Assembly: GCF_014467055.1 (NCBI RefSeq)
Contig: NZ_CP060696.1
Coordinates: forward strand, 2,728,001 to 2,792,000
DNA from: Caproicibacterium amylolyticum
Lineage (GTDB): Bacteria; Bacillota; Clostridia; Oscillospirales; Acutalibacteraceae
Reading direction: 5' to 3'
Length of the DNA stretch: 64,000 nucleotides
In this document: one piece after another, positions 8,882 through 55,213 of the stretch
Position numbering within the stretch: position 1 is the first letter of the stretch
Layout: each line of letters begins with the position of its first letter
Made by a program: the position numbers and the translations under genes
The notes under the pieces: generated by a model
Databases searched by the model: none
Seen by the model: only the letters and a program-made list of their open reading frames with translations
Told to the model about the DNA's origin: nothing

Positions 8882-9514
8882 TTATAGATGGGATTTATAA
8901 GAAGTAATTGCAGTAATAAATTCATGAACTTCATCAGAATATTTCTCTGCAACCCTTTGTTTAGCAAGTTCATTCATTTTGGCTTCCGTGTTTAGATGAA
9001 ACATCTCAATATAACGTCTCGCCTTTTCTTTATGTACTTTATCGGTATTAGGTTTGACAAATGGTATTGCACCGGGAGTACCATCTTTACAACTAGGAAT
9101 AATAAAAAACTCTTCAGGATCATCTAAATAGGGATGTACAATTGAAAAATCAGAATCAGTGTAATGTTTTCCAAGTCGTTTAATTACATCGGTTTGTCCT
9201 TTCCCGAATGTTGAATTACAATCATGACATGATAGAACAAGATTAACGGGCAAAAAAGTGTATTCGACATGTTTGGGGTGTTTATCCCCACCCTTCGGTG
9301 CGATATGGTCAATTTCAGAAGAAAGCAATGGGAGCTCACAATATGCACATTTATTTTGTTGATTTTCCATGAGTTGCAGTTTAGCAATCGCTTTAAACTT
9401 CTTTACTTCAGCGGCGCCGGAATTCCACCCACCTGCAACCGCATGCTTTTTTAATTTAGTTTTCAGTGATTTAGGTATTTTGATCTTGTTATATATTTTT
9501 TTTGTAAACATCAC
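8882..9514 (-). CDS. HNH endonuclease, Septu PtuB-like
   Basis: A 210-residue nuclease encoded after, and overlapping by 26 bases, the ATPase gene. Its HNH/treble-clef core is CAYC near residue 57, SEIDHIAPKGG, and CHDCNSTFG near residue 95; the N-terminal part is Lys-rich. In Septu systems PtuB is the effector nuclease held by the PtuA ATPase and released to cut DNA during infection. Pairing, order, overlap and size fit PtuA-PtuB. The gene is much more AT-rich than the late genes around it, which points to recent acquisition. Confidence 0.78.
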   Translation of the reverse strand: MMFTKKIYNKIKIPKSLKTKLKKHAVAGGWNSGAAEVKKFKAIAKLQLMENQQNKCAYCELPLLSSEIDHIAPKGGDKHPKHVEYTFLPVNLVLSCHDCNSTFGKGQTDVIKRLGKHYTDSDFSIVHPYLDDPEEFFIIPSCKDGTPGAIPFVKPNTDKVHKEKARRYIEMFHLNTEAKMNELAKQRVAEKYSDEVHEFITAITSYKSHL

Positions 9515-10853
9515 AAAACTCCTGTGCTTGGTCTAATACTATATTAAGAGGGTCTGATTGATCAAATATAAATTTTCTCAGCTTATTAACTAAATTCTGT
9601 ATTTCATCAACATTTGATCCTGTACCATCATCTGAATTCATTAAGTCAATTATTTTTCTTAAGTCGGCCTCAAAGTAATAATTTCTTGTTGTCCTCACCC
9701 CAAAAATATTGTAAATTACATTTTCAGCAGACCACGCGTACGTACTGTAAGGTAATAATTCTGCGCTTGGTGATGTTGTATCAATTGCTCTATTCATAAA
9801 AACAATAGATGATGTGTGTGGCTCCAGATCAGAAACGAGATAGTGAGAATGACTTGCAATAAGGAAATGGCAACTCCCATACCTGTGAAATATTTTCTTT
9901 ATTAAGTCAATATACTTGGTTTGCCACTCTGGATGCAGGCTTATTTCCGGTTCATCAATTAGTACAAGGGAATTAGGCTTAATATTATTTAGAATTCCAG
10001 TCAAAGAGAAAATTAAATGCTTTTCACCAGAACTGCAATCTTCAAAGGGAATTCGCTCGCCATTTTTAAAAAATATAATATTAGACAATTCCAATTCATC
10101 ACTTTTGATGCAAGACAAAATGCTTTCTTTATTTTCATTCAAATATAATCTGTTTTCATCTCTATCATTCTGGAAGTCAATTGAAATATTTGAATCCCAG
10201 ATTGCGTCTTTAAGTATATTTTTGGAACCATCTATAGATTTTGACGTATTGTTGTTAATGACTTTAAATTGAACTTTTTTATCAAACTTCATTAACGATA
10301 GTATTGTAATAAGTTCGGTATAATTTTCAGATAAAGTAACTTCAAAGAAATTGCGCATTACATTCTGTAATATGGAACTCGTATAAGTTGCGTTTGAAGA
10401 CTTTCGAACTCCTAAATATATATAAGATGGAAAAAACTTTCCCATTTCTGGAGTTGTAAATAAAAACTTATCATTGACAAGAAATGATACCGCAAGAATT
10501 TTGCAAGGAAGCGCAAGTTCCTCTAAATTAATTAATAAACTATCTCGATAGCAATAAATTTCTGAACCTGATAATCGCTTTACTTCATATTTATAGCCAT
10601 TAATTTCGTATCCAATTGAAAACTGATCATATCTAAATTTAGGTTTTCTTTGATAATTCTTTGCTTTTTCCAAGAATATAAATATGTTTGCAATAATCGT
10701 TAATAAGTAGCTTTTGCCTGAGCCATTAACGCCAAGAATTAACGTTGTAAATATTTTATCTCTAGGGGTATTACTTTGAGCTACAAATTGTACATTCATT
10801 ATTTCTTTACCGTGATGATTGATTTTTAATGACTCAAGTAAAAATTCACACAT
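9489..10853 (-). CDS. AAA/SMC-type ATPase, Septu PtuA-like
   Basis: A 454-residue ATPase. The start at 10853 is chosen because CGGAG lies 8 bases upstream; a TTG at 10919 would add 22 residues. Walker A (GVNGSGKS, residues 41-48), an ABC-like signature (SSGEKHL), Walker B (SLVLIDEPEISLHPEW) and a switch His (FLIASHSHYL) follow in order, as in the OLD/PtuA group. The middle region is poorly conserved and may form the coiled-coil insertion. With the overlapping HNH gene it makes a two-gene Septu-like defence unit on the opposite strand to the packaging genes. A similar ATPase-HNH pair can also belong to retrons, but no retron reverse transcriptase is present. Confidence 0.78.
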   Translation of the reverse strand: MCEFLLESLKINHHGKEIMNVQFVAQSNTPRDKIFTTLILGVNGSGKSYLLTIIANIFIFLEKAKNYQRKPKFRYDQFSIGYEINGYKYEVKRLSGSEIYCYRDSLLINLEELALPCKILAVSFLVNDKFLFTTPEMGKFFPSYIYLGVRKSSNATYTSSILQNVMRNFFEVTLSENYTELITILSLMKFDKKVQFKVINNNTSKSIDGSKNILKDAIWDSNISIDFQNDRDENRLYLNENKESILSCIKSDELELSNIIFFKNGERIPFEDCSSGEKHLIFSLTGILNNIKPNSLVLIDEPEISLHPEWQTKYIDLIKKIFHRYGSCHFLIASHSHYLVSDLEPHTSSIVFMNRAIDTTSPSAELLPYSTYAWSAENVIYNIFGVRTTRNYYFEADLRKIIDLMNSDDGTGSNVDEIQNLVNKLRKFIFDQSDPLNIVLDQAQEFCDVYKKNI

Positions 10854-11009
10854 ATTATCAACTCCGCTAATTTCATGATCTTTGCAACTTGTTGTAAGCG
10901 ATACCGGCATGATCTGCAAATTATGGTATTTCTTTATTGCTCGGCGAACTTCGCATCATGGTACTAATCTACCATTTTAATTTATCATGCTATCTTGTTG
11001 TTTACAAGT

Positions 11010-14933: not shown

Positions 14934-16124
14934 ATGATGCCGACAATTCTTGAACTGCGCGAGAAACGCGCCAAAGCATGGGAAGCCGCCAAGGTCTTTC
15001 TTGATCTCAAGAAAACCCCGGATGGAATGCTATCCGCCGAAGACGCTGCCGCCTACGATAAAATGGAAGCTGAAATTATCGCGCTCAAACAGCAGATTGA
15101 CCGCGAAGAACGGGCGCGCGAATACGAGCAGGAGCTTGCCTCCCCCACCAGTCAGCCGCTGACCGGGAATCCCGGCGTTCCGGCGCAGGCTCAGTCCGGC
15201 AGGGCGTCCGACGCTTACAAAGCGGCGTTCTGGGACGCCATTCGCGGACGCAAGGCGGCAAACGCTTTGCAGGTGGGCACCGACAGCGAGGGTGGATATC
15301 TGGTGCCGGACGAATTCGACCGCCAGCTGATGGAAACTCTCGAGGAACAGAACATTTTCCGGCAACTTGCCCGGATTATTCAGACTGCCAGCGGCGACCA
15401 CAAAATTCCGGTGGTCGCAACCAAAGGCACCGCAAGCTGGGTGGATGAGGAAGGCCAGATTCCCGAGAGCGACAACAGCTTTTCTCAGGTAACGCTCAGC
15501 GCGTATAAGCTGGCAACGCTGATTAAGGTCAGTCAGGAACTGCTGAACGATTCGATCTTCCCGCTGGAAAGCTATATCGCGAGCGAATTCGCCCGGCGCA
15601 TCGGAGCCAAAGAGGAAGAAGCGTTCTTTGTCGGCGACGGCACAAAAAAGCCCACCGGCGTTCTCGCCGCGACGGGCGGCGCGCAGGTGGGCAAAACAAC
15701 GGCGTCGGCAACCGCCATCACGCTGGATGAAATTCTCGATTTGTACTACAGCCTGCGGTCGCCTTACCGGGCAAAAGCTGTGTTTATCACGAACGACACG
15801 ACCGTGAAAACCGTCCGCAAGCTGAAAGACAGCAACGGGCAGTACCTCTGGCAGCCGGCGATTACCGCTTCCGCGCCGGATACGATTCTGGGCAAACCCA
15901 TTTATACCTCCGCCTATGTTCCGGCTGTCGCGGCAAGTGCGAAAACCGTGGCGTTCGGAGATTTCAGTTACTACTGGATCGCCGACCGGCAGGGGCGCAC
16001 ATTCCAGCGGCTGAACGAGCTGTACGCCACCACCGGGCAGGTGGGTTTCATCGCAACCGAGCGGGTGGACGGAAAGCTGATTCTGCCGGAAGCGGTGCAG
16101 GTGCTTCAGCAGGCGGCGTCATGA
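14934..16124 (+). CDS. HK97-type major capsid protein
   Basis: A 396-residue capsid protein. Residues 1-110 form a charged, helical delta/scaffold domain (ILELREKRAKAWEAAK), expected to be removed by the adjacent protease. The mature fold starts around TDSEGGYLVPDEFDRQL and includes IPVVATKGTASWVDEE and GDFSYYWIADRQG. A double ATG at 14934/14937 follows GGGAGGAA; either may be used. The prophage B homologue at 55561-56760 is of similar length and clearly related. Confidence 0.94.
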   Translation: MMPTILELREKRAKAWEAAKVFLDLKKTPDGMLSAEDAAAYDKMEAEIIALKQQIDREERAREYEQELASPTSQPLTGNPGVPAQAQSGRASDAYKAAFWDAIRGRKAANALQVGTDSEGGYLVPDEFDRQLMETLEEQNIFRQLARIIQTASGDHKIPVVATKGTASWVDEEGQIPESDNSFSQVTLSAYKLATLIKVSQELLNDSIFPLESYIASEFARRIGAKEEEAFFVGDGTKKPTGVLAATGGAQVGKTTASATAITLDEILDLYYSLRSPYRAKAVFITNDTTVKTVRKLKDSNGQYLWQPAITASAPDTILGKPIYTSAYVPAVAASAKTVAFGDFSYYWIADRQGRTFQRLNELYATTGQVGFIATERVDGKLILPEAVQVLQQAAS

Positions 16125-16125
16125 T

Positions 16126-16437
16126 ATGGCGGATTTGCTGGATAAGGTTAAGAAGAATCTGATTCTGGAGCACAATCAGGATGATATCCTGCTCCAAAGC
16201 TTTATCGCCGCCGCGACCGCCTACGCCGAAAAATACCAACATGTGGCAGACGGTTTTTACGCCGAAAATACGATGTCCGCAACCACGGAGCAGGCAATCA
16301 TTATGCTGTCAAGCCACTTTTATGAAAGCCGCGACGGCTCCACCGGGGGATTTTTTGCCGACAGCGTTCCGGCGGGACAGCAGGTATGGGATACCGTGAA
16401 TATGCTCCTGCGCCTCGACCGCGAATGGAAGGTGTGA
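16126..16437 (+). CDS. Head-tail connector protein (gp6-like)
   Basis: A 103-residue HK97 gp6-like connector that forms a ring beneath the portal. It starts right after the capsid gene. Conserved helical segments TEQAIIMLSSHFYESRDG and QQVWDTVNMLLRLDREW are shared with prophage B (55224-55544). Downstream synteny is broken here by an antisense regulator whose stop lies only 4 bases away. Confidence 0.88.
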   Translation: MADLLDKVKKNLILEHNQDDILLQSFIAAATAYAEKYQHVADGFYAENTMSATTEQAIIMLSSHFYESRDGSTGGFFADSVPAGQQVWDTVNMLLRLDREWKV

Positions 16438-16441
16438 AATA

Positions 16442-16945
16442 TCATTCTATGATTTGAGATATATTCTTCACAAGATTTGATTGGCACTCATGTGCTTGAT
16501 TAATCAATTTCTCTCCTCGCACATCAAGAGCGACATTCATAAAAGTGTATGGAGTACTGATGTGTGAATCCATTAACTTGTTGAGCGGTAAATCGTCAAT
16601 ATTCATTGCCTCACTATGCACCTTATAAATTTCATCCAACACAGCATTAATTGCCCAAAAACGCCGATTGTTTTCCTTGTAATCGTCAGTATAGTCCCCA
16701 TTTTCTTTTAAACAAGTTTCTAACTTGTCAAGTAATCCATCTGGATATACAATCTGAATTTGTGCGGGAAAAACGGGAAAGTGTAATGCCTCAGCAAGTT
16801 GAATCCACGTCTTTGTACTTGGTGTCCGCCTCCCTGATTCATAATGAGCATAGGTTGATTTATCTATGCCAAGCTCATCAGCTACATCCTTTTGAGTTTT
16901 TCCAGCACGTTGACGAAAAAGTTTTAGTTGCTCATTTATTTCCAT
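16442..16945 (-). CDS. XRE-family regulator carried as antisense moron
   Basis: A 167-residue HTH regulator inserted between connector and adaptor genes. The N-terminal Cro/C1 HTH (residues 5-60) is KLFRQRAGKTQKDVADELG followed by the recognition helix DKSTYAHYESGRRTPS. The C-terminal half (residues 75-167) is helical, unrecognised, and may be a sensor or oligomerisation domain. The gene has its own strong promoter and a palindrome between promoter and start, so it probably represses itself. It is not in the lysogeny-control position, and may instead be a stand-alone regulator benefiting the lysogen. Confidence 0.85.
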   Translation of the reverse strand: MEINEQLKLFRQRAGKTQKDVADELGIDKSTYAHYESGRRTPSTKTWIQLAEALHFPVFPAQIQIVYPDGLLDKLETCLKENGDYTDDYKENNRRFWAINAVLDEIYKVHSEAMNIDDLPLNKLMDSHISTPYTFMNVALDVRGEKLINQAHECQSNLVKNISQIIE

Positions 16946-16968
16946 TGATATTCCTTCCTTCTAAGAAA

Positions 16969-17016
16969 TTGGCGTATCGCCAACGCTAGTATAATGCTAA
17001 GTTGGCGCTTTGTCAA
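16969..17016 (-). promoter_or_regulatory. Sigma-A promoter and operator of the XRE moron
   Basis: On the minus strand a perfect -35 TTGACA (17016-17011), 17-base spacer and -10 TATACT (16993-16988). Downstream, TTGGCG-TAT-CGCCAA (16969-16983) is a perfect inverted repeat, and a further half-site (GCGCCAAC) sits inside the spacer. This layout fits an autoregulated XRE gene. Confidence 0.8.
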
Positions 17017-17044
17017 CCAAGTAATTGAGAAAGTTGGAAAACAC

Positions 17045-17380
17045 ATGAGTTTCGGTAAAATGAACGCTTTCATTGATGTTGTAAAGACCGAGCAAAGCAA
17101 AGACGCCGACGGCTTCGTCACCTCGACCGATACGGTGCTTGCCAGCGCCCGCGCCTACCGGGAAGACCGTCACGGGAATGAGATATGGGCGAACCGCGCG
17201 GCGTGGTCGGCAGCGACCAGCCTGTTCCGTTTCCGCAGGATTCCCGGCGTAGAAATCCGTCCCTCGCTTTTTATCGTCTGCTCCGGCGAACGGTTCCGTA
17301 TTCTCAGCGCGGAGGATGTGCGGGGGCGCGGCATGTACACCGAGGTTCTGGCGGAACGGCTGGAGCCGAGTAAGCATTGA
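17045..17380 (+). CDS. Phage head-tail adaptor / head closure protein
   Basis: A 111-residue SPP1 gp16-like adaptor. The start at 17045 (SFGKMNAFIDVV) is supported by the identical opening in prophage B (54415-54750). Conserved features include ARAYREDRHGNEIWANRAAW, FRFRRIPGVE and GRGMYTEVLAE. It closes the head after packaging and joins the tail. The XRE promoter occupies the sequence just upstream, so the ribosome site here is weak. Confidence 0.87.
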   Translation: MSFGKMNAFIDVVKTEQSKDADGFVTSTDTVLASARAYREDRHGNEIWANRAAWSAATSLFRFRRIPGVEIRPSLFIVCSGERFRILSAEDVRGRGMYTEVLAERLEPSKH

Positions 17381-17392
17381 GGAGGGATTCCT

Positions 17393-17824
17393 GTGGCAAA
17401 GGTAAGTTTTTCTATGCCAGCCGACTTTTTGCGGAAAGTCTCCGCGCTCGGCGAGAAAACCGACGAGATTATCCCCCGTGTGCTGGAAGCGGGCGGTGAG
17501 GTCGCGTTCGAAAAGGTTCGCGATAATTTGGAATCGGTCATAGGCCGGGATACCAAATCCCCTTCGCGTTCCACCGGAGAGCTTGCGTCGGCGCTGGGGC
17601 TTTCTCCGGCGAGGATGGATAAGGACGGCAATTTTAACGTTAAAGTGGGCTTTTCGGAACCGCGCCCGGATGGGGAGAGCAATGCCAAAATTGCCAACAT
17701 CCTCGAGTACGGCAAGCACGGCCAGCCGCCGAAGCCCTTTTTAAAGCCCGCAAAAACACAGGCGCGCAAACCGGGCATTGAGGCGATGAAGGAAAAGCTG
17801 GAGGAGGAAATCAAAAAAATATGA
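17393..17824 (+). CDS. HK97 gp10-like tail completion protein
   Basis: A 143-residue protein with a GTG start 13 bases after the adaptor gene, preceded by GAGGAGG. It matches the prophage B protein at 53960-54409 along its length: VPRVLEAGG-type helix, ESVIGRDTKSPSRSTGELASALG, and EYGKHGQPPKPFLKPA. The HK97-gp10 family acts at the neck/tail terminator. It overlaps the next gene by 4 bases (ATGA). Confidence 0.85.
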   Translation: MAKVSFSMPADFLRKVSALGEKTDEIIPRVLEAGGEVAFEKVRDNLESVIGRDTKSPSRSTGELASALGLSPARMDKDGNFNVKVGFSEPRPDGESNAKIANILEYGKHGQPPKPFLKPAKTQARKPGIEAMKEKLEEEIKKI

Positions 17825-18162
17825 GCATCCTTCAGGAACTGACCGCACTCATCACCGGATTGGGGCTTGCGGTGGAAACCGGCGTTTTTTCCGGAGAAGC
17901 TCCCGCAGAGTATATAGTTATAACGCCGTTGACCGATTCGTTTGAGTTGTTCGGCGACAACCGCCCGGAATATGAAACGCAGGAGGCGCGCCTGTCGCTC
18001 TTTTCCAAAAGAAACTACATCGCGCTGAAAACCAGCGTCCTCCGCGCGCTGCTGGCCGCCGGTTTTACCGTCACCGACCATCGGTATATCGAACATGAGG
18101 ACGATACCGGTTACCACCATTATGCCATCGACACGGCAAAACCGTATGCATGGGAGGAATGA
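17821..18162 (+). CDS. Tail terminator/completion-like protein
   Basis: A 113-residue protein in the tail terminator position between the gp10-like gene and the tail tube gene. It is similar in length and sequence to prophage B 53619-53963: ETGVFSGEAPAEYIVITPL, QEARLSLFSKRNY and EHEDDTGYHHYAID. The role is inferred from position and DUF3168-like size. Confidence 0.75.
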   Translation: MSILQELTALITGLGLAVETGVFSGEAPAEYIVITPLTDSFELFGDNRPEYETQEARLSLFSKRNYIALKTSVLRALLAAGFTVTDHRYIEHEDDTGYHHYAIDTAKPYAWEE

Positions 18163-18164
18163 AG

Positions 18165-18764
18165 ATGGCCACCATCGGCATGGATAAACTCTATTACGCT
18201 AAAATTACCGAAGGCACCGACGGGGATGAAACATACGCGACGCCAACCCAGCTTGCAAAGGCAATTAAAGCCGATCTTACCATTGATCTGGCGGAAGCGA
18301 CGCTCTACGCCGACGACGGCACAGCCTATGTCGTCAAGGAGTTCAAAACCGGTACGCTGTCGCTGGGTGTTGAGGACATCGGCGCTCAGGCGGCACAGGA
18401 CCTGACCGGGGCAGTCGTGGACGACAACGGCGTTCTGGTGTCCACCGGTGAAGATGAGGGAGCGGCGGTGGCAGTAGGCTTTCGGGCGCTCAAACCGAAC
18501 GGGAAATACCGCTATTTCTGGCTGTACCGCGTAAAATTCGGCATCCCCGCCGCGAATCTGCAGACCAAAGGCGACTCCATCACCTTCCAGACCCCGACCA
18601 TTGAGGGAACCGTGATGCGCCGGAACAAGGCCGACAGCAAGGGCAATCATCCTTGGAAAGCCGAAGTGACCGAAGGCGACGCCGGCGTATCCGACGCAAC
18701 CGTTACCGGCTGGTACGCGCAGGTTTACGAGCCGGTTTACACCGCGCCGCCGTCCGGCACATAA
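18165..18764 (+). CDS. Major tail (tube) protein
   Basis: A 199-residue major tail protein. The start at 18165 (ATIGMDKLYYAKITEG) matches prophage B (ATVGFDKLYYSKITEA). Family features are KCDLSIDLAEATLYADD-like (here KADLTIDLAEATLYADD), FKTGTLSLGVEDIG and NGKYRYFWLYRVKFG. It polymerises into the tail tube of a long-tailed siphophage. Confidence 0.9.
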   Translation: MATIGMDKLYYAKITEGTDGDETYATPTQLAKAIKADLTIDLAEATLYADDGTAYVVKEFKTGTLSLGVEDIGAQAAQDLTGAVVDDNGVLVSTGEDEGAAVAVGFRALKPNGKYRYFWLYRVKFGIPAANLQTKGDSITFQTPTIEGTVMRRNKADSKGNHPWKAEVTEGDAGVSDATVTGWYAQVYEPVYTAPPSGT

Positions 18765-18778
18765 AGGGGGATTTTTTC

Positions 18779-19171
18779 ATGGAAGAAGAACGCGGCGCGC
18801 TGATTGACATCGGCGGCGAGGAATACGAGCTGATTCTCACCACAAAGGCGACAAAGGCCATCGCCGGGCGCTACGGCGGCCTTGAAAATCTGGGTGAAAA
18901 GCTGATGCGCTCGGAGAATTTTGAGATGGCGCTGGATGAGATCGTCTGGCTTCTGACACTGCTTGCAAACCAGTCCGTCCTGATTTACAACCTCAAACAC
19001 AAAGATGCGCCGAAGGAACTGCTGACCGAGGAGGAAGTGGAGCTTCTCACCTCGCCCCTGCAGCTGGCGTCATATAAAAACGCCATCACCGAAGCCATGC
19101 TCCGGGGCACCGCCCGGAACGTGGTCAGCGAATGCGCAGAGAATCCATTAAAAAACACACCAGCCGGGTGA
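18779..19171 (+). CDS. Tail assembly chaperone, G frame
   Basis: A 130-residue protein upstream of the tape measure gene. The start at 18779 follows AAAGGGGG. It shares EYELILTTKATKAIAGRYGG and MALDEIVWLLTLLANQSV with prophage B (52626-53012). The last codons hold the slippery heptamer A_AAA_AAC at 19150-19156; -1 slippage there fuses the protein to the downstream T frame, as in many long-tailed phages. G and GT chaperone the tape measure during tail assembly. Confidence 0.87.
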   Translation: MEEERGALIDIGGEEYELILTTKATKAIAGRYGGLENLGEKLMRSENFEMALDEIVWLLTLLANQSVLIYNLKHKDAPKELLTEEEVELLTSPLQLASYKNAITEAMLRGTARNVVSECAENPLKNTPAG

Positions 19172-19359
19172 GCGACAGCGAACTTTTCACCCGGCTGTAT
19201 TATTACGGAATCGTTCAGATGCATATGGAGCCGGAGCAATTCTGGCTCACGCCCATCGGGCTTTTTCTGGATTTATGGGCCTGTCACAAACAGTTTCTGG
19301 GAATTGAGACACCGTATCGGGAGATAAGTGTGGATGATGTGATACCAAGTGATAGTTAA
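19132..19359 (+). CDS. Tail assembly chaperone, T frame (made by -1 frameshift)
   Basis: An open frame overlapping the end of the G gene in the -1 frame. If made by slippage, its coding part starts at 19156 (67 codons: HTSRVSDSELFTRLYYYG onward); the ATG at 19132 has no ribosome site. Prophage B has the same protein in the same relative frame at 52435-52641 (RVSDEELFARLLYYGV). Shared residues include the Gln-His region, PIG(L/D), a Trp, HKQF and IDDV. Its stop is 1 base from the stop of the antisense HEPN-like gene. Confidence 0.85.
   Translation: MRRESIKKHTSRVSDSELFTRLYYYGIVQMHMEPEQFWLTPIGLFLDLWACHKQFLGIETPYREISVDDVIPSDS
19150..19156 (+). promoter_or_regulatory. -1 ribosomal frameshift heptamer A_AAA_AAC
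   Basis: In the G reading frame the codons read TTA AAA AAC, giving the classic slippery site A_AAA_AAC. Slipping by -1 continues as CAC ACC AGC in the T frame. The same heptamer sits at the same place in prophage B (52641-52647). Confidence 0.85.
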
Positions 19360-19360
19360 A

Positions 19361-20548
19361 TCATGCAACTACTTGAATTTTGCTTTCTAAACACAAAAAC
19401 AACTTGTACATTTCATTCATATATATAAACCTGCGCAGGGAATTAGCTTCCGTTTCTTTCTCTGTCGCATGTCCGTGGGCTATCTTATGTCTTGAATTAT
19501 TGGGGCAGCTATCCGGATCAGCTGGAGAAAAGTTTTCGGTGTAAGTCTTATCTACACAGTCCAGAACACATCTACAAATAATCCAATCTGTGAAAGGCAT
19601 CACATTCATGGGCATTTCAAGAGCAAGATCTGTCACACTTTGAAGTGCCTTCTCTCCCCGATACATTGGATTCGCCATGTTTTCACGGACAAAATCAGTT
19701 ACAATTCCTTCAAAATGGAGAGAGAGTATTGTTGTAGAAGAATTGAACATTCGCCTTGAGTGGCCTATCAGTGCTTCATGAAATACATTTTTTCTTGACT
19801 CGAAGTAAGAAGGACCGCTCCATCCATTTACAATTTGCTTAAGGGCAGCACATCTATTATTCCTGAAATGTTGAACAATCAGAGTGTCCACTTCTTCTTG
19901 TGTGATTTCAGTTCTTCGTTCATATATATTATCAACAATTTCTTCAGGAAGCTCCGAAACTAAAAGCCAGCCAAATTTTCTTAGAAGATTATTTTTTTCT
20001 TCAAAATTTCTCATATGAGCGAATGCTTCTGAAAATTGTGAAAAATCAATTGGTGGAATGGCTCTTACAAGCCCAGAAATCTGAAATCGAAACGCATCAG
20101 TAAAGCCTTGGGTAATTTGCGACATTTGCTTCGTCATCGGAATAAGGGTATCTGATAAGCTTTGCAAACCACTGGTCATTGCGCGAATTGAATCAGTTAA
20201 ATAGTCCATTTTGGAAAGACTGATCTGTAATGGTTGAATCGATTTCACTAATGACTCTGCTAGGTAATCAAATCTTGGCAACGATGTTTGAAGTGCTCTT
20301 GATGCTTCATTTGCTAGGGAACTCAGAGCCGGAGCCAGAGACTTCGATACCATCTCACTCACGGAAATAGCAGGTTGCATCGCAATGGCTTGTTTAGCAA
20401 CAAAATTCTGTTGAACCATCAACGCACTCATGAGTGGCGGATTGATCATTCGCTGGATGGTTGCCTGCTGTTTAAGTGCTGATTCTAGCACCGGATTAGA
20501 AAGAGCAGAATTAAGCCCTACTGGAATATTGGTTTTTAACTTATCCAT
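19361..20548 (-). CDS. HEPN-like protein carried as antisense moron
   Basis: A roughly 395-residue protein unlike any phage structural protein. Residues 1-190 are a long amphipathic helical region with recurrent patterns (SLAPALSSLANEASRAL; PLQISLSKMDYLTDSIRAM), probably a coiled coil. The C-terminal part contains RHKIAHGHA near residue 360, an R-x4-H motif of HEPN RNases, and EANSLRRFIYMNEM after it. HEPN ribonucleases are common abortive-infection effectors. ATG at 20548 is taken as start; TTG at 20560 is the alternative. It forms an operon with the 52-codon gene upstream and is inserted between chaperone and tape measure genes. Confidence 0.65.
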   Translation of the reverse strand: MDKLKTNIPVGLNSALSNPVLESALKQQATIQRMINPPLMSALMVQQNFVAKQAIAMQPAISVSEMVSKSLAPALSSLANEASRALQTSLPRFDYLAESLVKSIQPLQISLSKMDYLTDSIRAMTSGLQSLSDTLIPMTKQMSQITQGFTDAFRFQISGLVRAIPPIDFSQFSEAFAHMRNFEEKNNLLRKFGWLLVSELPEEIVDNIYERRTEITQEEVDTLIVQHFRNNRCAALKQIVNGWSGPSYFESRKNVFHEALIGHSRRMFNSSTTILSLHFEGIVTDFVRENMANPMYRGEKALQSVTDLALEMPMNVMPFTDWIICRCVLDCVDKTYTENFSPADPDSCPNNSRHKIAHGHATEKETEANSLRRFIYMNEMYKLFLCLESKIQVVA

Positions 20549-20591
20549 ATTATTTGTCAATCCCCCCCATGACGTTTAAGCATGATTCTTT

Positions 20592-20750
20592 TTACTTCTT
20601 TTTACTCTCTTTACTCTCTTTACGGATGGTTCCAATTTGTTTATCAGATCGTGTGTCCCGACCATCAGAATTTCGGATTGTTCCCGCTGGTAATCCGTGG
20701 TTCTTTTCGAAGGAACCTACCGTACAATCGCTCCTTGTCTTCCGAGTCAT
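20592..20750 (-). CDS. Small basic protein upstream of HEPN-like gene
   Basis: A 52-residue gene with a strong AAAGGAGGG 6 bases before its ATG, below a near-consensus promoter. The product is very polar (TRKTRSDCTVGSFEKNHG, then PAGTIRNSDGRDTRSDKQIG and a Lys/Ser tail) and contains two related TxGxxxK-type segments: TVGSFEKNHG and IGTIRKES, each preceded by RSD. It is the first gene of the HEPN-like operon, with the HEPN start about 44 bases beyond its stop. It could be an antitoxin, a regulator or a DNA-binding peptide; no homology is recognised. Confidence 0.65.
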   Translation of the reverse strand: MTRKTRSDCTVGSFEKNHGLPAGTIRNSDGRDTRSDKQIGTIRKESKESKKK

Positions 20751-20833
20751 TTTAAGCCCTCCTTTACGTTGAATCTTATTAAACCATACGTTTTGACCAT
20801 TATCAGTCAGACATTCTAAGTACTAACACTAAA

Positions 20834-20863
20834 ATTATACAGCCTACATATTGTGATTGTCAA
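20834..20863 (-). promoter_or_regulatory. Sigma-A promoter of the HEPN-like operon
   Basis: Minus-strand TTGACA (20863-20858), 18-base spacer, consensus TATAAT (20839-20834). The leader to the 52-codon gene is about 80 bases. The stretch 20864-20926 upstream carries only the tape measure ribosome site. Confidence 0.85.
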
Positions 20864-20926
20864 GATAGTTCAACACCACAAGTTGTAATTTGTAGATAAC
20901 CATATGTTTTAAGGAGGTGACCGCAT

Positions 20927-23218
20927 ATCGCAGACGATTTTGGGGTGCGGATCGGCATCGAGGGCGAAAAGGCTTTCAAGGATGCGCTCCGCGACATCAA
21001 CCAGAGTTTCAAAGTACTCGGCTCCGAGATGCAGCTGGTCACCAGCCAGTTTGACAAAAATGACTCATCCGTGCAGGCCGTCACCGCCCGGAATGCAGTC
21101 CTGAATAAAGAAATTGACCAGCAGAAAGAGAAAATCGAGACCCTCCGCGCCGCTTTGCAGAACGCGTCGGACTCTTTCGGAGAAAACGACCGCCGAACGC
21201 AAAACTGGCAGATACAACTGAACAAAGCGCAAGCCGACCTCAACGGCATGGAAAAGGAACTCCAAAAAAACAACAGTGTGCTGGACAACGCCGGGAAAGA
21301 ATTCGACGACGCCGAAAAGCAGGCGAATCAGTTCGGCAATGAAATCACAAGCGCATCAAAGCAGTCGGAAGAAGCGTCCGGGCGCTTTGATAAACTCGGC
21401 GGTGTCGTCAAGGGGATCGGCGCTTCCCTTGGCGTGGCTCTGGCCGGAATCGGCGCGGCTGCCGTGGGCGCGGGCAAATCGCTGGTGGATGCTTCCGTAA
21501 ACTCCGCCGCCTACGCCGACGAAGTTCTTACGCTCTCCGACCAGACGCACGTCGGCACGGAGGCCCTGCAGGCCTACCAATACGCCGCCGAACTGATTGA
21601 CACACCGCTCGAAACCTTTACCGCGAGCATGGCGCGGAATGTCCGGTCTATGGATTCGGCGGCGGGAGGCTCTAAGGAAGTGGCTGCGGCTTACGCAAGG
21701 CTCGGCGTTTCGATTCAGGATTCAAACGGACACCTGAGAAACGGTGAGGATGTTTACTGGTCGGCGATCGACGCACTCGGGCAGATATCCAATGAAACCG
21801 AGCGGGACGCGCTTTCGATGCAGATCTTCGGCAAATCCGCACAGGGCCTGAATCCGCTGATTGCGAAGGGCAGTGCGGGAATCAAAGAACTGACCGCCGA
21901 AGCGCAGAACATGGGCGCGGTCATGTCGGGCGACCAGCTTAATTCTCTCGGCAAGTTCGACGATACGGTTCAGCGTCTGAAATCCGGGGCGGAGGCCGCA
22001 AAGAATGTCATGGGTACAGTCCTTCTTCCGCAGATGCAGACGCTCGCCAGCTCCGGCGTGTCGCTGCTCGGCACCTTTACAAAGGGACTTTCGAACGCGG
22101 GCGGCGACTGGACAAAAATTTCAGCGGCTATCGCCGCGACGATTGGAGGACTGACCAGTTCCATCCTCGCAGAACTGCCGAAGGTCGTGCAGGCGGGGCT
22201 GGACATTGTGCTGTCAATCGGAAACGCAATCACGGCAAATCTGCCGACAATCATCAATTCGGCGGTTTCCATCGTCATGACGCTGGTGCAGGGACTGGTG
22301 AGCGCTTTGCCGCAGATCACGCAGGGCGCGCTGCAATTAGTTCTGTCACTGGTGGACGGTATCATCGCCAATCTTCCTCAGCTGGTGAACGCCGCGCTAA
22401 CGATGGTGATTACGCTGGCGTCGGGCATCGGCGACGCACTCCCAAAGCTCATCCCCGCCATGATTGACGCGGTCCTTACAATTGTGAACACGCTTCTCAA
22501 CAATATGGATCAGGTGCTTTCCGCCGCGTTCAAGATCATCGAAGGGCTGGCGAGAGGGCTGATCAATGCCCTGCCGAAGCTGATCGACCGACTGCCGCAG
22601 ATCATCGATTCCATTGTGGATTTCATCGTGAACAACCTGCCGCTCATCATCGAAACCGGCGTAAAAATCATCATTGAACTGGCGGCTGGCTTGATCAAGG
22701 CGATACCGACGCTCGTGGCAAAGCTGCCGCAGATTATTTCCGCGATGGTAAGCGGTTTCGGCAAGCTGCTCGGCGCATTCAGCAATATCGGGAACAACAT
22801 TGTATCCGGCATCTGGCAGGGCATTTCCGGGATGAAGGACTGGATTCATGCCAAAGTCCGTGATTTCTTTGGCGGAATCGTTGACAGTGTAAAGGGACTG
22901 CTTGGGATTCATTCCCCGTCCGCCGTGTTCGCCGGAATCGGCGGCTTCATGGCGCAGGGGCTCGGGCAGGGCTTCAGTAAGGCGATGAACGATGTTTCCG
23001 CCGATATGCAGAATTCGATTCCTACAAATTTTAACCTCAATCCTGCGCTGGGTGTCGGCGGGTTTGCAGGCGGTTCCGCTGGCATGGCGGGAGGCTCCGG
23101 CGGCTTTACGCTGCACATCGAGAATTTTGTGAACAACACGGAAAAGGACATCCAGCGTCTTGCCTATGAATTTGAATTCTATCGGCAGCAAGCAGCGGCG
23201 GCAAGGGGGAACGCGTGA
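20927..23218 (+). CDS. Tape measure protein with ATC in place of the start codon
   Basis: The tail length and DNA ejection protein (about 763 residues). The prophage B homologue starts MADNFGFKIGVEGEK; the frame here reads ATC GCA GAC GAT TTT GGG GTG CGG ATC, so the aligned start codon is ATC, 6 bases after AAGGAGGTGA. The next possible start, GTG at 20945, is 24 bases from that site. The N-terminal 150 residues are coiled coil. A hydrophobic Gly/Ala segment lies at about 155-185 (GASLGVALAGIGAAAVGAG) and long helical repeats (LPQLVNAAL, LPKLIDRLPQIID) follow. The last bases overlap Dit. Confidence 0.85.
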   Translation: MADDFGVRIGIEGEKAFKDALRDINQSFKVLGSEMQLVTSQFDKNDSSVQAVTARNAVLNKEIDQQKEKIETLRAALQNASDSFGENDRRTQNWQIQLNKAQADLNGMEKELQKNNSVLDNAGKEFDDAEKQANQFGNEITSASKQSEEASGRFDKLGGVVKGIGASLGVALAGIGAAAVGAGKSLVDASVNSAAYADEVLTLSDQTHVGTEALQAYQYAAELIDTPLETFTASMARNVRSMDSAAGGSKEVAAAYARLGVSIQDSNGHLRNGEDVYWSAIDALGQISNETERDALSMQIFGKSAQGLNPLIAKGSAGIKELTAEAQNMGAVMSGDQLNSLGKFDDTVQRLKSGAEAAKNVMGTVLLPQMQTLASSGVSLLGTFTKGLSNAGGDWTKISAAIAATIGGLTSSILAELPKVVQAGLDIVLSIGNAITANLPTIINSAVSIVMTLVQGLVSALPQITQGALQLVLSLVDGIIANLPQLVNAALTMVITLASGIGDALPKLIPAMIDAVLTIVNTLLNNMDQVLSAAFKIIEGLARGLINALPKLIDRLPQIIDSIVDFIVNNLPLIIETGVKIIIELAAGLIKAIPTLVAKLPQIISAMVSGFGKLLGAFSNIGNNIVSGIWQGISGMKDWIHAKVRDFFGGIVDSVKGLLGIHSPSAVFAGIGGFMAQGLGQGFSKAMNDVSADMQNSIPTNFNLNPALGVGGFAGGSAGMAGGSGGFTLHIENFVNNTEKDIQRLAYEFEFYRQQAAAARGNA

Positions 23219-23931
23219 TGCTGAGCTTCACGTTCGGAGGCAAGAACAGCTTTCAGGACTTCGGTATCTTTGTGGCTTCCCGTCCGCATATCCCATCCCC
23301 GGAGCGCCGGGTGACCTACATCGACGTGCCGGGGATGGACTCCCGGCTCCGGCGCGACGAGGGCACCTACGGCGATATCACTCTTTCCGTGGAATGCTCG
23401 TTTCTCGGCGACCCCGTTCCGAAAATCAGCGCCGTTAAAGGATGGCTTCTGGGCGCTGGCGAAGCCGATCTGACTTTCAGCCACATTCCGGGTCGGAAGT
23501 ATCGCGCGCAGGTGGTCAACAGCATCGACTTTGAAATCGTGCTGAAAATCACCTCGCATTTCGTGATTCTGTTCAACTGTCAGCCGTTCCAGTACGCGAC
23601 GGACAATGCGCCAATTGTTGTAACGGACGGTTCCGGATATGTTCTGTCCAATCCCGGAACGGTGAAATCTCTTCCTAATATAAAGATAACTGGCTCCGGC
23701 GCGGGAGCTCTAACGGTGAACGGGGGTAATGTGTCTTTCAGCAACATCGACGGCACGGTGACGCTTGATTCCACGATTCAGGAAACGTATCAGGACACCG
23801 GCACGTCGCTCATCAGCAAGAATTCCACCAAGATTGGGAATTACTCAGTGCTTTTGCCGGGTGACAACGCGATCTCGTTTTCCGGCGGAATCACGTCCCT
23901 TGAAATCACTCCGAACTGGCGGTGGCTATGA
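23218..23931 (+). CDS. Distal tail protein (Dit)
   Basis: A 237-residue distal tail protein, the hub of the siphophage tail tip. ATG at 23218 overlaps the tape measure stop. It has SFTFGGKNSFQDFGIFVASRP, the PGMDSRLRRDEGTYGDI region, and the WLLGAGEADL and FNCQPFQYA segments typical of the N-terminal domain. Prophage B has a similar-sized copy at 48917-49624. It ends in a TGATG overlap with Tal. Confidence 0.88.
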   Translation: MLSFTFGGKNSFQDFGIFVASRPHIPSPERRVTYIDVPGMDSRLRRDEGTYGDITLSVECSFLGDPVPKISAVKGWLLGAGEADLTFSHIPGRKYRAQVVNSIDFEIVLKITSHFVILFNCQPFQYATDNAPIVVTDGSGYVLSNPGTVKSLPNIKITGSGAGALTVNGGNVSFSNIDGTVTLDSTIQETYQDTGTSLISKNSTKIGNYSVLLPGDNAISFSGGITSLEITPNWRWL

Positions 23932-26444
23932 TGATTCGGGTCTACGATTCCAAAGCACAGGAATTTTCGAATGACGGACTTGGGACGGTCACTCCAAGTT
24001 CCTGCGTCGTTTCGGAAGAAATCAACGGCGCGTTTGAACTGGAACTGACGCATCCGGTCGATTCCTTCGGCAAGTGGAAACGGCTCCAGAAAAACAATAT
24101 CATCCGGGCGAACACACACCATGGGATTCAGGCATTCCGCATCTACCGGGTGGTCAAAAACGTTGTCGACGGTACGGTGAAGGTGAATGCCCGGCACATC
24201 TTCTATGACCTGCTGGCCAATTTCGTGGAGGACGTCCGTCCGACCGGCAAGACCGGAGCGGAAGCCGGGCAGCAGATTCTGAGCGGATGCCAGTATCTGA
24301 CTCCGTTCACCTTCTCAAGCGACATTACACATAATTCCACCGCTTACTATCTCCGCCAGTCTCCGGTGCAAGCGTTCCTCGGTGACGCCGATCAGGCGTT
24401 CATTTCCCGGTGGGGCGGTGAGATCATCCGGGACAATTTCAGCATCGCCGTCAACACCCGGCTTGGGACGGACAACGGAGTACGGATCGCCTACGGAAAG
24501 AACATGGCGGGGCTGGAATTTCAGGAGGACGCATCCGGCGTGGCGACGCGGATTCTGCCGACGGCCCTGACCGAAGATAATCAGATTCTGATTCTCCCTG
24601 AAAAGTACATTGACAGCCCGCGCATCGCTGATTATCCGTTTCCGGTGATTGCAGTGATGGACACCGGATTTCAGGTCGGCAAAGAAGTCGACGGCGCAAT
24701 TTCCTACCCCACAATCGATTCCTGCTATGAAGCCATGAGAGAATTCGTTGCCAATCAGTACCTTGCCGGGGCCGACATTCCGAAGCTTTCCCTGTCTGTG
24801 GATTTCGTGGACTGGAAGGACATCACCGGATATGAAAAATACAGGTCTTTGCTGACTGTGAACCTCGGCGATGATGTTACGGTCGATTATGAGCCGTTCG
24901 GTGTCAGCGTCAAGCTTCGGGTGTGCGCGGTATCATACAACTGCCTGACCGATCGGTTTGAAACACTGACCGTCGGAGAGAAGCGAATATCCGTCGTGAA
25001 TTCCATCAACTCCGCTTCGCAGCAGATCAGCGAAGTAAAGCGGGAAATTACCGTTACCAATCAGAACGTGTCCTCTGTCACGGAAAACGTATCTGACCTG
25101 AACAGTGACGACAAGCTGACTCCGGGTGAAAAAAGCGCCGCTCTGAGGGAGTGGAGTTCCTTTGCCAATGAAAAAGGAACGCTCAGCACGCAGGCCACGG
25201 CGCTTGGAATTACAACCGAACTGTCTGCCTACAACGACTCTTTCCAGCTCCTCTCCAATTATCTGAACGGCGGCGCGTTGTACACGACCGGCATTCCGCT
25301 CTGGCTGGATGATGGGCATCGGGATACCACCACGGACATCAGCGGCGAACAGTACCGGCAGAACTTTGAGGATTACTATGTTGCCCGGAACATACTTGTT
25401 CAGGCAATCACCGCGAAGCTCAAGGCGCTGGCCGACACCGCGCAGAACGGCGTCGACGCCAACACGGGCGAAATCACGACCATTGATTCGACCCTTATCA
25501 CCATCCAGACCGATGTCGGCGGCCTGCAAACCACCGTTTCTAGCATCGACGACCAGATTTCCAACACCGAGGACGGCATCGCGCTCCGGCTTTCGAACGC
25601 GGAATCGACCATTGAACAGCACAGCGCTTCCATTGTCACCAAAGTCGAAAGCAGCACCTTCGACGGATATGTTTCGGAAAATGACGCACAGTTTTCAGAC
25701 GTTGATACCCGGCTGACCACGATGCAGCAGACCGTGGACGGTCTGACCTTGTCCATCAGCAGGACCGGCTACCGGAATCTGCTGAAGAATTCGGCGGGCC
25801 GGAACGGGCTGACTTTCTGGAGCACAACCGGAACAGTCACTACCGTTTCCAATACGGATACTTCAAACAACACGGTCAGCAATTCCGCCTTCCTCATGGC
25901 GGCGGACAGCGCCATCTCGCAGGATTTCTCCCTGAAATTCAACACGGCACACACGGCCTCTTTGCTCTTTCGGGCTTCCGGCTCGGGCGGAACAGTTACG
26001 GTCAGCATTACACAAAACGGTGCCGAATCCGTTTTATATGACAACACAAATACCGGCACGGACTGGGAGTTTGTTACCTTTTCTTTCCATTCTCTGGGCA
26101 CGGTCTGCTCCATTAAAATTACAGCTTCCATTGAAATCCTCGTGTCCGATCTGATCGTTTCCGAGGGGACGAATATTGCGCCGTGGGTACAATCCGACGA
26201 AGAGCTATATACAACAAACTTCATCGCCGACAGCACCGGTCTGACGATCGGAAGCAATACCACCGACATGAAAGCCCACATTTCCACTTCGGCATTTGAA
26301 ATCTTTCGAGGCGATGATCTTAGAATCAACGTTGCGCCGGACGGAACGCGCCTGCAAAAAACCATCATTGAGGACGATCTCACGGTCGGCAGTGTCAAGG
26401 AAATCGTCCGGGCCGGGGTCGGCGTCGATTTCGTTGTAATATAG
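23931..26444 (+). CDS. Tail-associated (Tal/gp27-like) tail protein
   Basis: An 837-residue tail-tip protein. The start is set at 23931 by alignment with prophage B, which is exactly the same length. The N-terminal ~370 residues resemble the phage Tal/gp27 domain (LELTHPVDSFGKWKRLQ, NARHIFYDLLANF). After about residue 380 comes a helical stalk (QQISEVKREITVTNQNVSSV; TTMQQTVDGLTLSISR) and then a beta-rich C-terminal region. No peptidase motif is evident. It probably trimerises in the baseplate or fibre. Confidence 0.85.
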   Translation: MIRVYDSKAQEFSNDGLGTVTPSSCVVSEEINGAFELELTHPVDSFGKWKRLQKNNIIRANTHHGIQAFRIYRVVKNVVDGTVKVNARHIFYDLLANFVEDVRPTGKTGAEAGQQILSGCQYLTPFTFSSDITHNSTAYYLRQSPVQAFLGDADQAFISRWGGEIIRDNFSIAVNTRLGTDNGVRIAYGKNMAGLEFQEDASGVATRILPTALTEDNQILILPEKYIDSPRIADYPFPVIAVMDTGFQVGKEVDGAISYPTIDSCYEAMREFVANQYLAGADIPKLSLSVDFVDWKDITGYEKYRSLLTVNLGDDVTVDYEPFGVSVKLRVCAVSYNCLTDRFETLTVGEKRISVVNSINSASQQISEVKREITVTNQNVSSVTENVSDLNSDDKLTPGEKSAALREWSSFANEKGTLSTQATALGITTELSAYNDSFQLLSNYLNGGALYTTGIPLWLDDGHRDTTTDISGEQYRQNFEDYYVARNILVQAITAKLKALADTAQNGVDANTGEITTIDSTLITIQTDVGGLQTTVSSIDDQISNTEDGIALRLSNAESTIEQHSASIVTKVESSTFDGYVSENDAQFSDVDTRLTTMQQTVDGLTLSISRTGYRNLLKNSAGRNGLTFWSTTGTVTTVSNTDTSNNTVSNSAFLMAADSAISQDFSLKFNTAHTASLLFRASGSGGTVTVSITQNGAESVLYDNTNTGTDWEFVTFSFHSLGTVCSIKITASIEILVSDLIVSEGTNIAPWVQSDEELYTTNFIADSTGLTIGSNTTDMKAHISTSAFEIFRGDDLRINVAPDGTRLQKTIIEDDLTVGSVKEIVRAGVGVDFVVI

Positions 26445-35499: not shown

Positions 35500-36711
35500 T
35501 CAATTGGAAAAGTGTATCAACCCTGTAGTTGTCCCTTTTTCTTTATTTTGATTACACGGTTCAAGCTTAAGATAATCCAGAATACTATTCATCGTTTCAA
35601 GCATTGAATAAATTCTCTCAGCATATTCATCAACTGCCGCTTCTTGTTTAAATCTATATTTCGTAACTAACGCAATTGTCATGTTGTATTCCACTTTAGT
35701 TTGACATTCCAGCATGGCCTGAGATATGCCTGACTTTTTAAATACATTAATATGTGGTAAAGCAGGGGAAACTTTCGAAAGTAACATTACATCTTTTCTA
35801 AAGTAAAGGCCACTTTCTAATTCATCATAATTTTTTATGCTTTCTAGGCGAAAACTGTTGCAATCCATCAAATTATAAATGCAGTTCTTGTCTATTCCTA
35901 AACACTCAAACTGTTTATAATCATTTAACTCATTTATTGCTTGATAACTTCTCAGAGAGTCTATTAATTTTATTGCATTGTATATTAGAAATCTATTTCC
36001 AGAAGGATACATCGAATTGATATTTTTTTCTATATTTGAAATTATCTCTGCGTAGTCTATCTTGACTTGGAATACGTCATAGATATTATCTTTTAACTTA
36101 TTAGTTATTTCTTCGATTGTGATATTTTTAAAGTTCATTGGATATTCAATGGCTTCAGTTCCGTATATAAGACGAAATAGATTATTATACAGAATTTTCA
36201 TTTCCTCTAAAATATCTTTTACTAAGTACTGCTTAATAAATCCTTGATTGGTTGCGTCTATCATTGCACAATTAATCCAATCAGATAATTCTTTATAAAA
36301 ATCGTTATTTTTGATATCAAAAGTCGAGATTCTTTTGTGATTAATATCAAAGGCTAACTTCTCAATATTACTTGATTTTGATACCAATAAAATCGTACGA
36401 GATTCCCCTAGTAGAGCCGTTGCAATACCGGCTTCATACATTACATTAGGATTTGAAACCTGAGCTTCGTTTTCAAGTAATGCTATATGTGATATATCGC
36501 CTATAAATACATCGCTATCTGAAATTTGGCTCCATATTTTTTCTATAATATCGGGAGAACCCGACTCCTCTTGAGTAGGTGCAAAGATGATATCTAAATC
36601 TAATTGTTTTGTCTGTAATAAGTATTTTTTGGATTTAGAAAGTTGTTTTTTAATAAAGCGTGCTATATCATTCTCTTGACTTTGCCAAGCCAGAAATATT
36701 TTCGCTTTCAT
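35500..36711 (-). CDS. TIR-like/nucleotide-binding protein
   Basis: A 403-residue AT-rich gene. The N-terminal ~150 residues look like a TIR-like or deoxyribosyltransferase-like Rossmann fold: KIFLAWQSQENDIARFIKK, then SDVFIGDISHIAL, NPNVMYEAGIATALLG with a conserved Glu, and RTILLVSKSSN. The C-terminal 250 residues are helical and unrecognised. TIR-like enzymes of this type can cleave NAD as antiviral effectors, but the fold alone does not prove it. It stands alone between the prophages, with a 22-bp repeat pair upstream. The start has AGGAG 9 bases upstream. Confidence 0.6.
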   Translation of the reverse strand: MKAKIFLAWQSQENDIARFIKKQLSKSKKYLLQTKQLDLDIIFAPTQEESGSPDIIEKIWSQISDSDVFIGDISHIALLENEAQVSNPNVMYEAGIATALLGESRTILLVSKSSNIEKLAFDINHKRISTFDIKNNDFYKELSDWINCAMIDATNQGFIKQYLVKDILEEMKILYNNLFRLIYGTEAIEYPMNFKNITIEEITNKLKDNIYDVFQVKIDYAEIISNIEKNINSMYPSGNRFLIYNAIKLIDSLRSYQAINELNDYKQFECLGIDKNCIYNLMDCNSFRLESIKNYDELESGLYFRKDVMLLSKVSPALPHINVFKKSGISQAMLECQTKVEYNMTIALVTKYRFKQEAAVDEYAERIYSMLETMNSILDYLKLEPCNQNKEKGTTTGLIHFSN

Positions 36712-51975: not shown

Positions 51976-52000
51976 AATCTCATGAAAGGTGGGTGCAGAA

Positions 52001-52438
52001 ATGATCCGACTAATGACAATTGCTGATTATAATGATGTTTATAATTTTTGGATCAATACGCCCGGCATGGGATTGAATGATATTGATGATTCCAGAGCCG
52101 GGATAGAAAAATATTTAGAGCGAAATCCCCGTACATGTTTTGTTGCTATTGAGCAAAATGAGATTGTCGGCGCAATTCTCAGTGGCCATGATGGACGCAG
52201 AGGATATATTTACCATACAGCTGTCAGCGCATCCATGCGTAAGTGCGGTATTGGTACCGCACTGTTGAGCGCAGCGATAAAATCACTAGAAGCAGAGGGC
52301 ATTTGTAAAGTTGCTCTGGTCGTTTTTTCTAAAAATTCTATTGGCAACAAATTCTGGGAAAAAAGAGGTTTCACTGTTCGTAAAGATTTGATTTACCGCA
52401 ACAAAGCAATGGTGGAACTAAAAAGAATAGATACTTAA
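52001..52438 (+). CDS. GNAT-family acetyltransferase carried as antisense moron
   Basis: A 145-residue GNAT enzyme. The start at 52001 (IRLMTIADYNDVYNFW) follows AAGGTGG. Motifs include AIEQNEIVGAILSGHDGRRGYIYHTAV and the acetyl-CoA loop RKCGIGTALL. The substrate is unknown. Its TAA stop overlaps the stop codon of the oppositely transcribed T frame. It sits between chaperone and tape measure genes, exactly where prophage A carries its HEPN-like unit. Confidence 0.87.
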   Translation: MIRLMTIADYNDVYNFWINTPGMGLNDIDDSRAGIEKYLERNPRTCFVAIEQNEIVGAILSGHDGRRGYIYHTAVSASMRKCGIGTALLSAAIKSLEAEGICKVALVVFSKNSIGNKFWEKRGFTVRKDLIYRNKAMVELKRIDT

Positions 52439-54838: not shown

Positions 54839-55213
54839 ATGATTACAGGTGTTTGTTTGGGTAACGTTGCAATTGACTGCAAAGATGCACGGAAACTTCA
54901 AGATTTTTACGCTGAACTTCTCGGTTGGGAAAAGTGTGAAAAGTATGACTGTCCCGCAGTGAGCAGTCAAAGCGGTATTGTGCTTTTGTTTATGCAGGCG
55001 GATGATTTCGATTATATACGTCCCGTATGGCCGGAGCAGCCCGGAAAACAGCAAAAGCAGATGCACTTTGATTTTCAGGTTGACGAGTTACTGACCGCAG
55101 TAAAGCAGGCGGAAGCAATCGGTGCAGTCAAAGCGGAAAGTCAGTATGGCGGCGGTGATTGGGTAACCATGTTCGATCCTGAAGGCCACCCGTTTTGCCT
55201 GTGCGCAAAATAA
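54839..55213 (+). CDS. VOC-superfamily (glyoxalase-like) protein, antisense moron
   Basis: A 124-residue VOC protein: VCLGNVAIDCKDARKLQDFYAELLGW at the start, HFDFQVDELLTAVKQAEA in the middle, and FDPEGHPFCLC at the end supply the usual metal-ligand positions (His and Glu). Substrate unknown; it could be a glyoxalase, dioxygenase or antibiotic-resistance protein. It sits between connector and adaptor genes, the same slot as the XRE moron in prophage A, with its stop 10 bases from the connector stop. Confidence 0.85.
   Translation: MITGVCLGNVAIDCKDARKLQDFYAELLGWEKCEKYDCPAVSSQSGIVLLFMQADDFDYIRPVWPEQPGKQQKQMHFDFQVDELLTAVKQAEAIGAVKAESQYGGGDWVTMFDPEGHPFCLCAK

Follow-up and report, generated by a model that had tools for sequence, protein, structure and literature searches.

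A 1.5-kb segment with low G+C content in the genome of Caproicibacterium amylolyticum likely carries a HEPN effector in a cargo slot of a prophage. The segment lies within a stretch of 64,000 nucleotides (contig NZ_CP060696.1, positions 2,728,001 to 2,792,000; hereafter, the window) and contains two genes on the minus strand. The longer gene encodes a protein of 395 amino acids (a.a.) which, given its motif and its structural model, is probably a HEPN ribonuclease and a self-sacrifice defense effector of an unnamed family. The shorter gene encodes 52 a.a. A conserved unit of the two genes is not supported; more probably, the shorter one is a mini-gene that has been transferred widely on its own and has a promoter in common with the HEPN gene here.

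The longer gene (19361..20548, minus strand) begins with ATG; an alternative start, TTG at 20560, would give 399 a.a., and we number residues in that reading. An earlier note, made from the DNA alone, had proposed a long helical N-terminus and a HEPN-like C-terminus with an R-x4-H motif, and both proposals held up. Close to the C-terminus is S-R-H-K-I-A-H-G, and in an alignment of 47 sequences, the arginine of R357-x4-H362 (19475..19492, minus strand) is conserved in 45 and the histidine in all 47. The HEPN motif is defined as R-x4-6-H with a polar residue after the arginine (excerpts of PMC3710099), and R357-H-K-I-A-H362 has this form. An E-x3-[KR] motif is present in many HEPN families, but not all; by eye, we saw conserved E284, D289, and R292, and no strict E-x3-[KR]. 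As a member of the superfamily, the protein would also be expected to form a dimer and to cut RNA without a metal. The model of residues 248-399 (the HEPN-like domain; 19364..19819, minus strand) resembles the HEPN domains of Csm6, AbiA, and AbiV, with moderate Z scores. AbiA and Csm6 are defense proteins with HEPN domains, and the AbiV structure entry that matched is titled as a HEPN defense protein. However, these three proteins have other N-termini, and we found no sequence match between them and the window protein. The N-terminal region (residues 5-175; 20036..20548, minus strand), which might be the sensor, is helical in the model, with low confidence, and its mean pairwise identity is 20-24%.

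No profile from Pfam, PADLOC, or NCBIfam, including the HEPN profiles, matched the window protein above its cutoff. The 47 family sequences were also run against Pfam, and among the 25 of 45 families listed, no curated family above its cutoff was assigned to them. Foldseek alone, with the whole model as the query, was uninformative. Searches with two Pfam HEPN families, aimed at a profile for comparison, gave few members and were set aside: PF18735 had matches in 4 of 79 genomes and PF18737 in 1 of 79. Two open reading frames (ORFs) of the size of a tape measure gene had weak matches to our HEPN profile (E = 6e-4 and 9e-4); we took these, and the weak matches of other helical proteins, as likeness to the helical N-terminus.

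The HEPN family is rare and patchy: in three whole-genome searches, with the window's own genome counted every time, it was present in 4 of 391 genomes from the class, 2 of 398 from the phylum, and 1 of 398 from the taxonomic family. There was no match in IMG/VR or among phages and plasmids. We found no paper describing the HEPN family or its slot between tail genes; subscription journals were outside the coverage of this search. Most of the relatives that we examined have defense genes as neighbors: in bacterial genomes, restriction or SIR2 genes are close to the HEPN gene at four of the five other loci with examined surroundings. This is a defense-island pattern, in a small sample, and it agrees with the earlier note's proposal of a role in defense. 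In G145, the HEPN gene is two genes ahead of a type I methylase and a specificity gene, and the intervening gene also has a specificity-type domain. In G240, it is directly ahead of a type I methylase, a specificity gene, and a DUF262-type gene, while in G228 it is flanked by a DrmC-like PLD protein and a MmeI-type IIG enzyme. In Clostridium sp. CS001 (G1200), the gene of a distant homologue comes after that of a SIR2-superfamily protein. In G836, an AAA_14/DUF4143 ATPase adjoins the HEPN gene and a DEAD/ResIII-type helicase is farther away, with no clear restriction gene adjacent.

In the window, both minus-strand genes are antisense to the surrounding tail genes. They lie between the second tail gene (19132..19359, plus strand) and the tape measure gene (20927..23218, plus strand), and G+C is 0.39 for 19361-20905 versus 0.57 in the flanks that we took. 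PHROGs describes 18779-19171 as "tail protein," 19132-19359 as "unknown function," and 20927-23218 as "tail length tape measure protein." From their position and overlap, 18779-19171 and 19132-19359 would be a tail chaperone pair. The earlier note had raised the option that the genes are cargo, and a survey of relatives bears this out. With the chaperone protein as the query, we considered 80 of the 374 matching IMG/VR loci, of which 74 were measurable. The second tail gene and the tape measure gene are at most 40 bp apart in 46 loci (empty sites), 41-200 bp apart in 4, and over 400 bp apart in 24 (filled sites). This is a prophage cargo slot: relatives have it empty or with other inserts.

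Among ten cargo proteins from these loci, Pfam identified AbiEii (L139 and L175), ParE (L101), Fic with a helix-turn-helix domain (L110), a YhcG nuclease (L180), and a NO VEIN C-terminal domain (L127). AbiEi in L139 and Phd/YefM in L101 were slightly below the Pfam cutoff, and the cargo proteins of L103 and L162 had no Pfam match. PADLOC was run on 25 cargo proteins, which came from 18 of the 24 filled loci, and among the 25 of 85 families shown were 3 SoFic/PDC-S04, 2 AbiEi, and 2 AbiEii. L173 and L174 have the same insert, and the proteins printed for L175 and L177 are the same. Based on the Pfam and PADLOC matches, there are about 22 distinct inserts, of which perhaps 6-7 include toxin-antitoxin or defense genes of a known type; the others had no assignment. 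The contents of this siphophage slot (AbiE, ParE/Phd, Fic, and HEPN) make it a possible source of further defense genes. Rousset reportedly described prophage hotspots of anti-phage genes in 2022. Like those hotspots, this is a conserved phage slot with variable defense cargo, but its borders are the genes for the tail chaperone and the tape measure protein in a siphophage-type family.

We also noticed that 14 of the 24 filled slots, and 0 of the 46 empty ones, have the ten bases TTTTCATGCC within the final 90 bp ahead of the tape measure gene (L101-L180). In the 12 slots that we folded, they come after hairpins that differ in sequence, which resembles an intrinsic terminator with a common tail. 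The ten bases may serve as a terminator for the cargo or mark a border of recombination. They are absent from the window's own slot.

The inserted genes have their own promoter, as the earlier note had proposed. In fact, this sigma-70/A promoter (TTGACA-18-TATAAT; 20834..20863, minus strand, read from 20863) matches the consensus at all 12 positions of the -35 and -10 elements, with an 18-bp spacer. It is the sole exact match in the window; shuffled sequences gave 0.03 expected matches, and 3 of 100 shuffles had one. The layout downstream is also as described: the polar small gene (52 a.a. and a stop codon, 20750 to 20592, minus strand) has a strong ribosome binding site, AAAGGAGGG (20757..20765, minus strand), six bases upstream of its ATG, and the longer gene follows after 43 bp on the same strand.

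Our favored explanation, which as a whole we consider fairly probable, is that the segment is prophage-borne abortive-infection cargo with a HEPN effector, accompanied by an unrelated mini-gene. In this view, a siphophage-type prophage gained the cargo between its tail chaperone gene and its tape measure gene. The cargo's strong promoter faces opposite to the late genes, so the cargo would be transcribed in the lysogen. The all-helical and quickly diversifying N-terminus would most likely sense a product or an activity of an incoming phage, and a dimer of the C-terminal HEPN domain would then cut RNA and halt the cell. If the prophage is induced, late transcription would run head-on across the cargo and, by analogy with the Tha system, would turn it down. 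This unnamed HEPN family, with its fast-changing N-terminus, joins the list of probable abortive-infection effectors.

There are partial precedents for such an arrangement. According to the excerpts of PMC11087260, Tha of Staphylococcus prophages (Tha-1 and Tha-2) is a prophage-borne protein that is expressed in the lysogen and activated by tail proteins. Its N-terminus is undefined, and its C-terminus is a HEPN domain that has R-x4-H. However, we detected no sequence relation between Tha and the window protein (hhalign probability of 0.1, with a Tha profile of two sequences). Also, Tha lies between the integrase and cI and has a partly overlapping antisense inhibitor, ith (PMC11087260, in part), whereas the window gene lies between tail genes and we identified no antisense inhibitor at its locus. 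Tab, from Pseudomonas phage JBD26, stops the assembly of tails through the tape measure protein; like the window's gene, it is a minus-strand defense gene inside the late gene cluster, with its own promoter, and it is active from the lysogen (excerpts of PMC10884400). Tab differs, by its description, in that it lies between the terminase genes, and those excerpts mention no HEPN domain.

The earlier note suggested that the small protein could be an antitoxin or a trigger sensor for the HEPN protein. If so, the 52-a.a. protein would bind and silence a HEPN toxin and release it upon infection. The two genes are adjacent on the same strand under the one promoter that was found, the small protein is basic and was modelled as compact, and HEPN toxins often come with partners. 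But we found no family HEPN gene within up to 5 kb on each side of the small gene at any of 88 loci, of which 33 had a flank shorter than 5 kb on at least one side (the sole match with E under 1 was at L051, with E = 0.016). The genes beside the small gene are unrelated. Nor was the small gene present in any of the 4 other HEPN genomes. When we searched 50 of the 80 genomes with the small gene for the HEPN family, 2 had matches: one is weak (E = 3e-4) and covers the helical part only, and the other is the homologue in Clostridium sp. CS001, which is convincing though distant and is about 5.1 kb from the small gene. In these searches, the small gene is not supported as a conserved HEPN partner. 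The closest HEPN homologues (P0002-P0005, 64-74% identity) were left out of this comparison, and a lineage-specific pairing among them could still fit. Overall, we consider a toxin-antitoxin pair very unlikely. As for an RNA antitoxin, Rfam had no match with E up to 1 in 15000-25000 of the window.

Two other explanations give the HEPN-like protein a different role or none. It might be non-catalytic or regulatory and serve the prophage's own control, by superinfection exclusion or gene regulation, instead of being an RNase effector. This seems unlikely to us, as the catalytic-type R/H pair is almost invariant in the alignment and most of the other loci examined are near restriction or SIR2 genes. 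Alternatively, the cargo might be decaying, unexpressed, and without a present function. At 20927, its prophage's tape measure gene starts with a non-standard codon, so the prophage itself may be decaying; the aligned place has ATG, TTG, or GTG in 63 of 74 measured relatives, and in the other 11 the aligned start is apparently offset by a few bases. The window's tail may be impaired, or a base may have been miscalled. But the cargo has a perfect promoter, a strong ribosome site, two open frames, and an intact motif, so we think that decay is quite unlikely.

The 52-a.a. family is the stranger of the two objects. The small gene (20592..20750, minus strand) encodes a basic protein (net charge of +7, pI of about 10.2). 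Among 87 of 89 sequences, including the window's, the entropy at the three codon positions is 0.53, 0.31, and 1.43 bits, and synonymous changes make up 72% of the codon differences (L079, in which no anchor was found, and L081, which has an in-frame stop, were left out). Since third positions vary and most differences are synonymous, this is a real coding sequence. We rejected a conserved DNA element, as conservation of the flanking DNA is limited to the region of the ribosome site and a block at the stop codon; the constraint is strong on the protein and absent from the surrounding DNA. A promoter-like score of at least 10 was found upstream of 23 of 87 small genes (window included) versus 6.8% of control segments, so the small gene often seems to have its own promoter.

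A search for homologues of the small protein, clustered at 90%, found 546, of which 120 were listed. In a scan of a genome collection, the gene was confirmed at 97 places, and we kept 80. The hosts include Bacillus, Paenibacillus, Clostridia, Halomonas, and Cobetia, as well as bins named after Mariprofundaceae, Chloroflexi, Slackia, and others; names from small contigs of metagenome-assembled genomes might reflect misbinning. The gene is also in 8 IMG/VR loci, 1 phage record, and 3 plasmids. Identity to the window's copy is 67-89% across the 80 genome loci (from Bacillota, Halomonadaceae, and the named bins), 58-73% in the eight IMG/VR loci, and 50% for forms on Spirosoma plasmids. We checked 98 genomes from the genus, family, and order to which the window belongs, and the small gene was in the window's own genome only. 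In Clostridium sp. CS001, a partial second copy lies about 0.6 kb away from the first copy (L184:9820-10700).

The small gene has no fixed neighbor. Among 108 of 143 neighboring ORFs, with 25 of 95 families shown, we found HSP70 and TerL and portal proteins (3 each), the small chain of ribonucleotide reductase (2), GrpE (1), DnaJ (1), and many singletons. By position and likeness, the gene is between terminase and portal genes in 5 of the 8 IMG/VR loci, and on a Spirosoma plasmid its neighbors are annotated as S24 peptidase on one side and DNA polymerase on the other. The protein is modelled as compact, with two helices. It had no significant match to a known fold (best E = 0.45) and no match in the copies of Pfam, PHROGs, PADLOC, and NCBIfam that we used; a likeness to uS11 (E = 0.19) was taken as chance. 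By eye, its two halves are alike, with T-R-S-D-x-x-[VI]-G occurring twice, as in a two-fold internal repeat. We tentatively suggest, as one possibility, that the small gene is a one-gene mobile module with a conserved job of its own (perhaps binding nucleic acids or the ribosome), which would have moved as an independent gene into phage late operons, GrpE-DnaK operons, plasmids, and defense cargo, and that all of its carriers, including the HEPN unit, would profit. A tiny protein that is strongly conserved across distant bacteria and has no constant neighbor is a testable puzzle.

Other genes in the window resemble cargo or defense genes. The first prophage has a PtuA/PtuB-like (Septu) pair at 8882-10919 (minus strand), which is antisense and upstream of the terminase gene, with G+C of 0.31-0.35. 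Between the prophages, 35500-36711 (minus strand) is low in G+C; its product has a CAP12/Pycsar-type TIR domain in Pfam (E = 1.5e-5, 25.4 bits against a cutoff of 24.7) and no sequence match in the PDB at E of 0.01. Another prophage of the same type, in inverted orientation, spans about 43-62 kb, and its corresponding slot holds a GNAT acetyltransferase (51989-52438, plus strand) that is antisense to the tail genes and ends at the stop codon of the second tail gene. Single antisense genes at 16442-16945 (minus strand), 54839-55213 (plus strand), and 56849-57571 (plus strand), two of which are low in G+C, also lie among late genes, and these sites are probably other cargo slots; their products are an XRE-type regulator, a glyoxalase-like protein, and an unknown protein.
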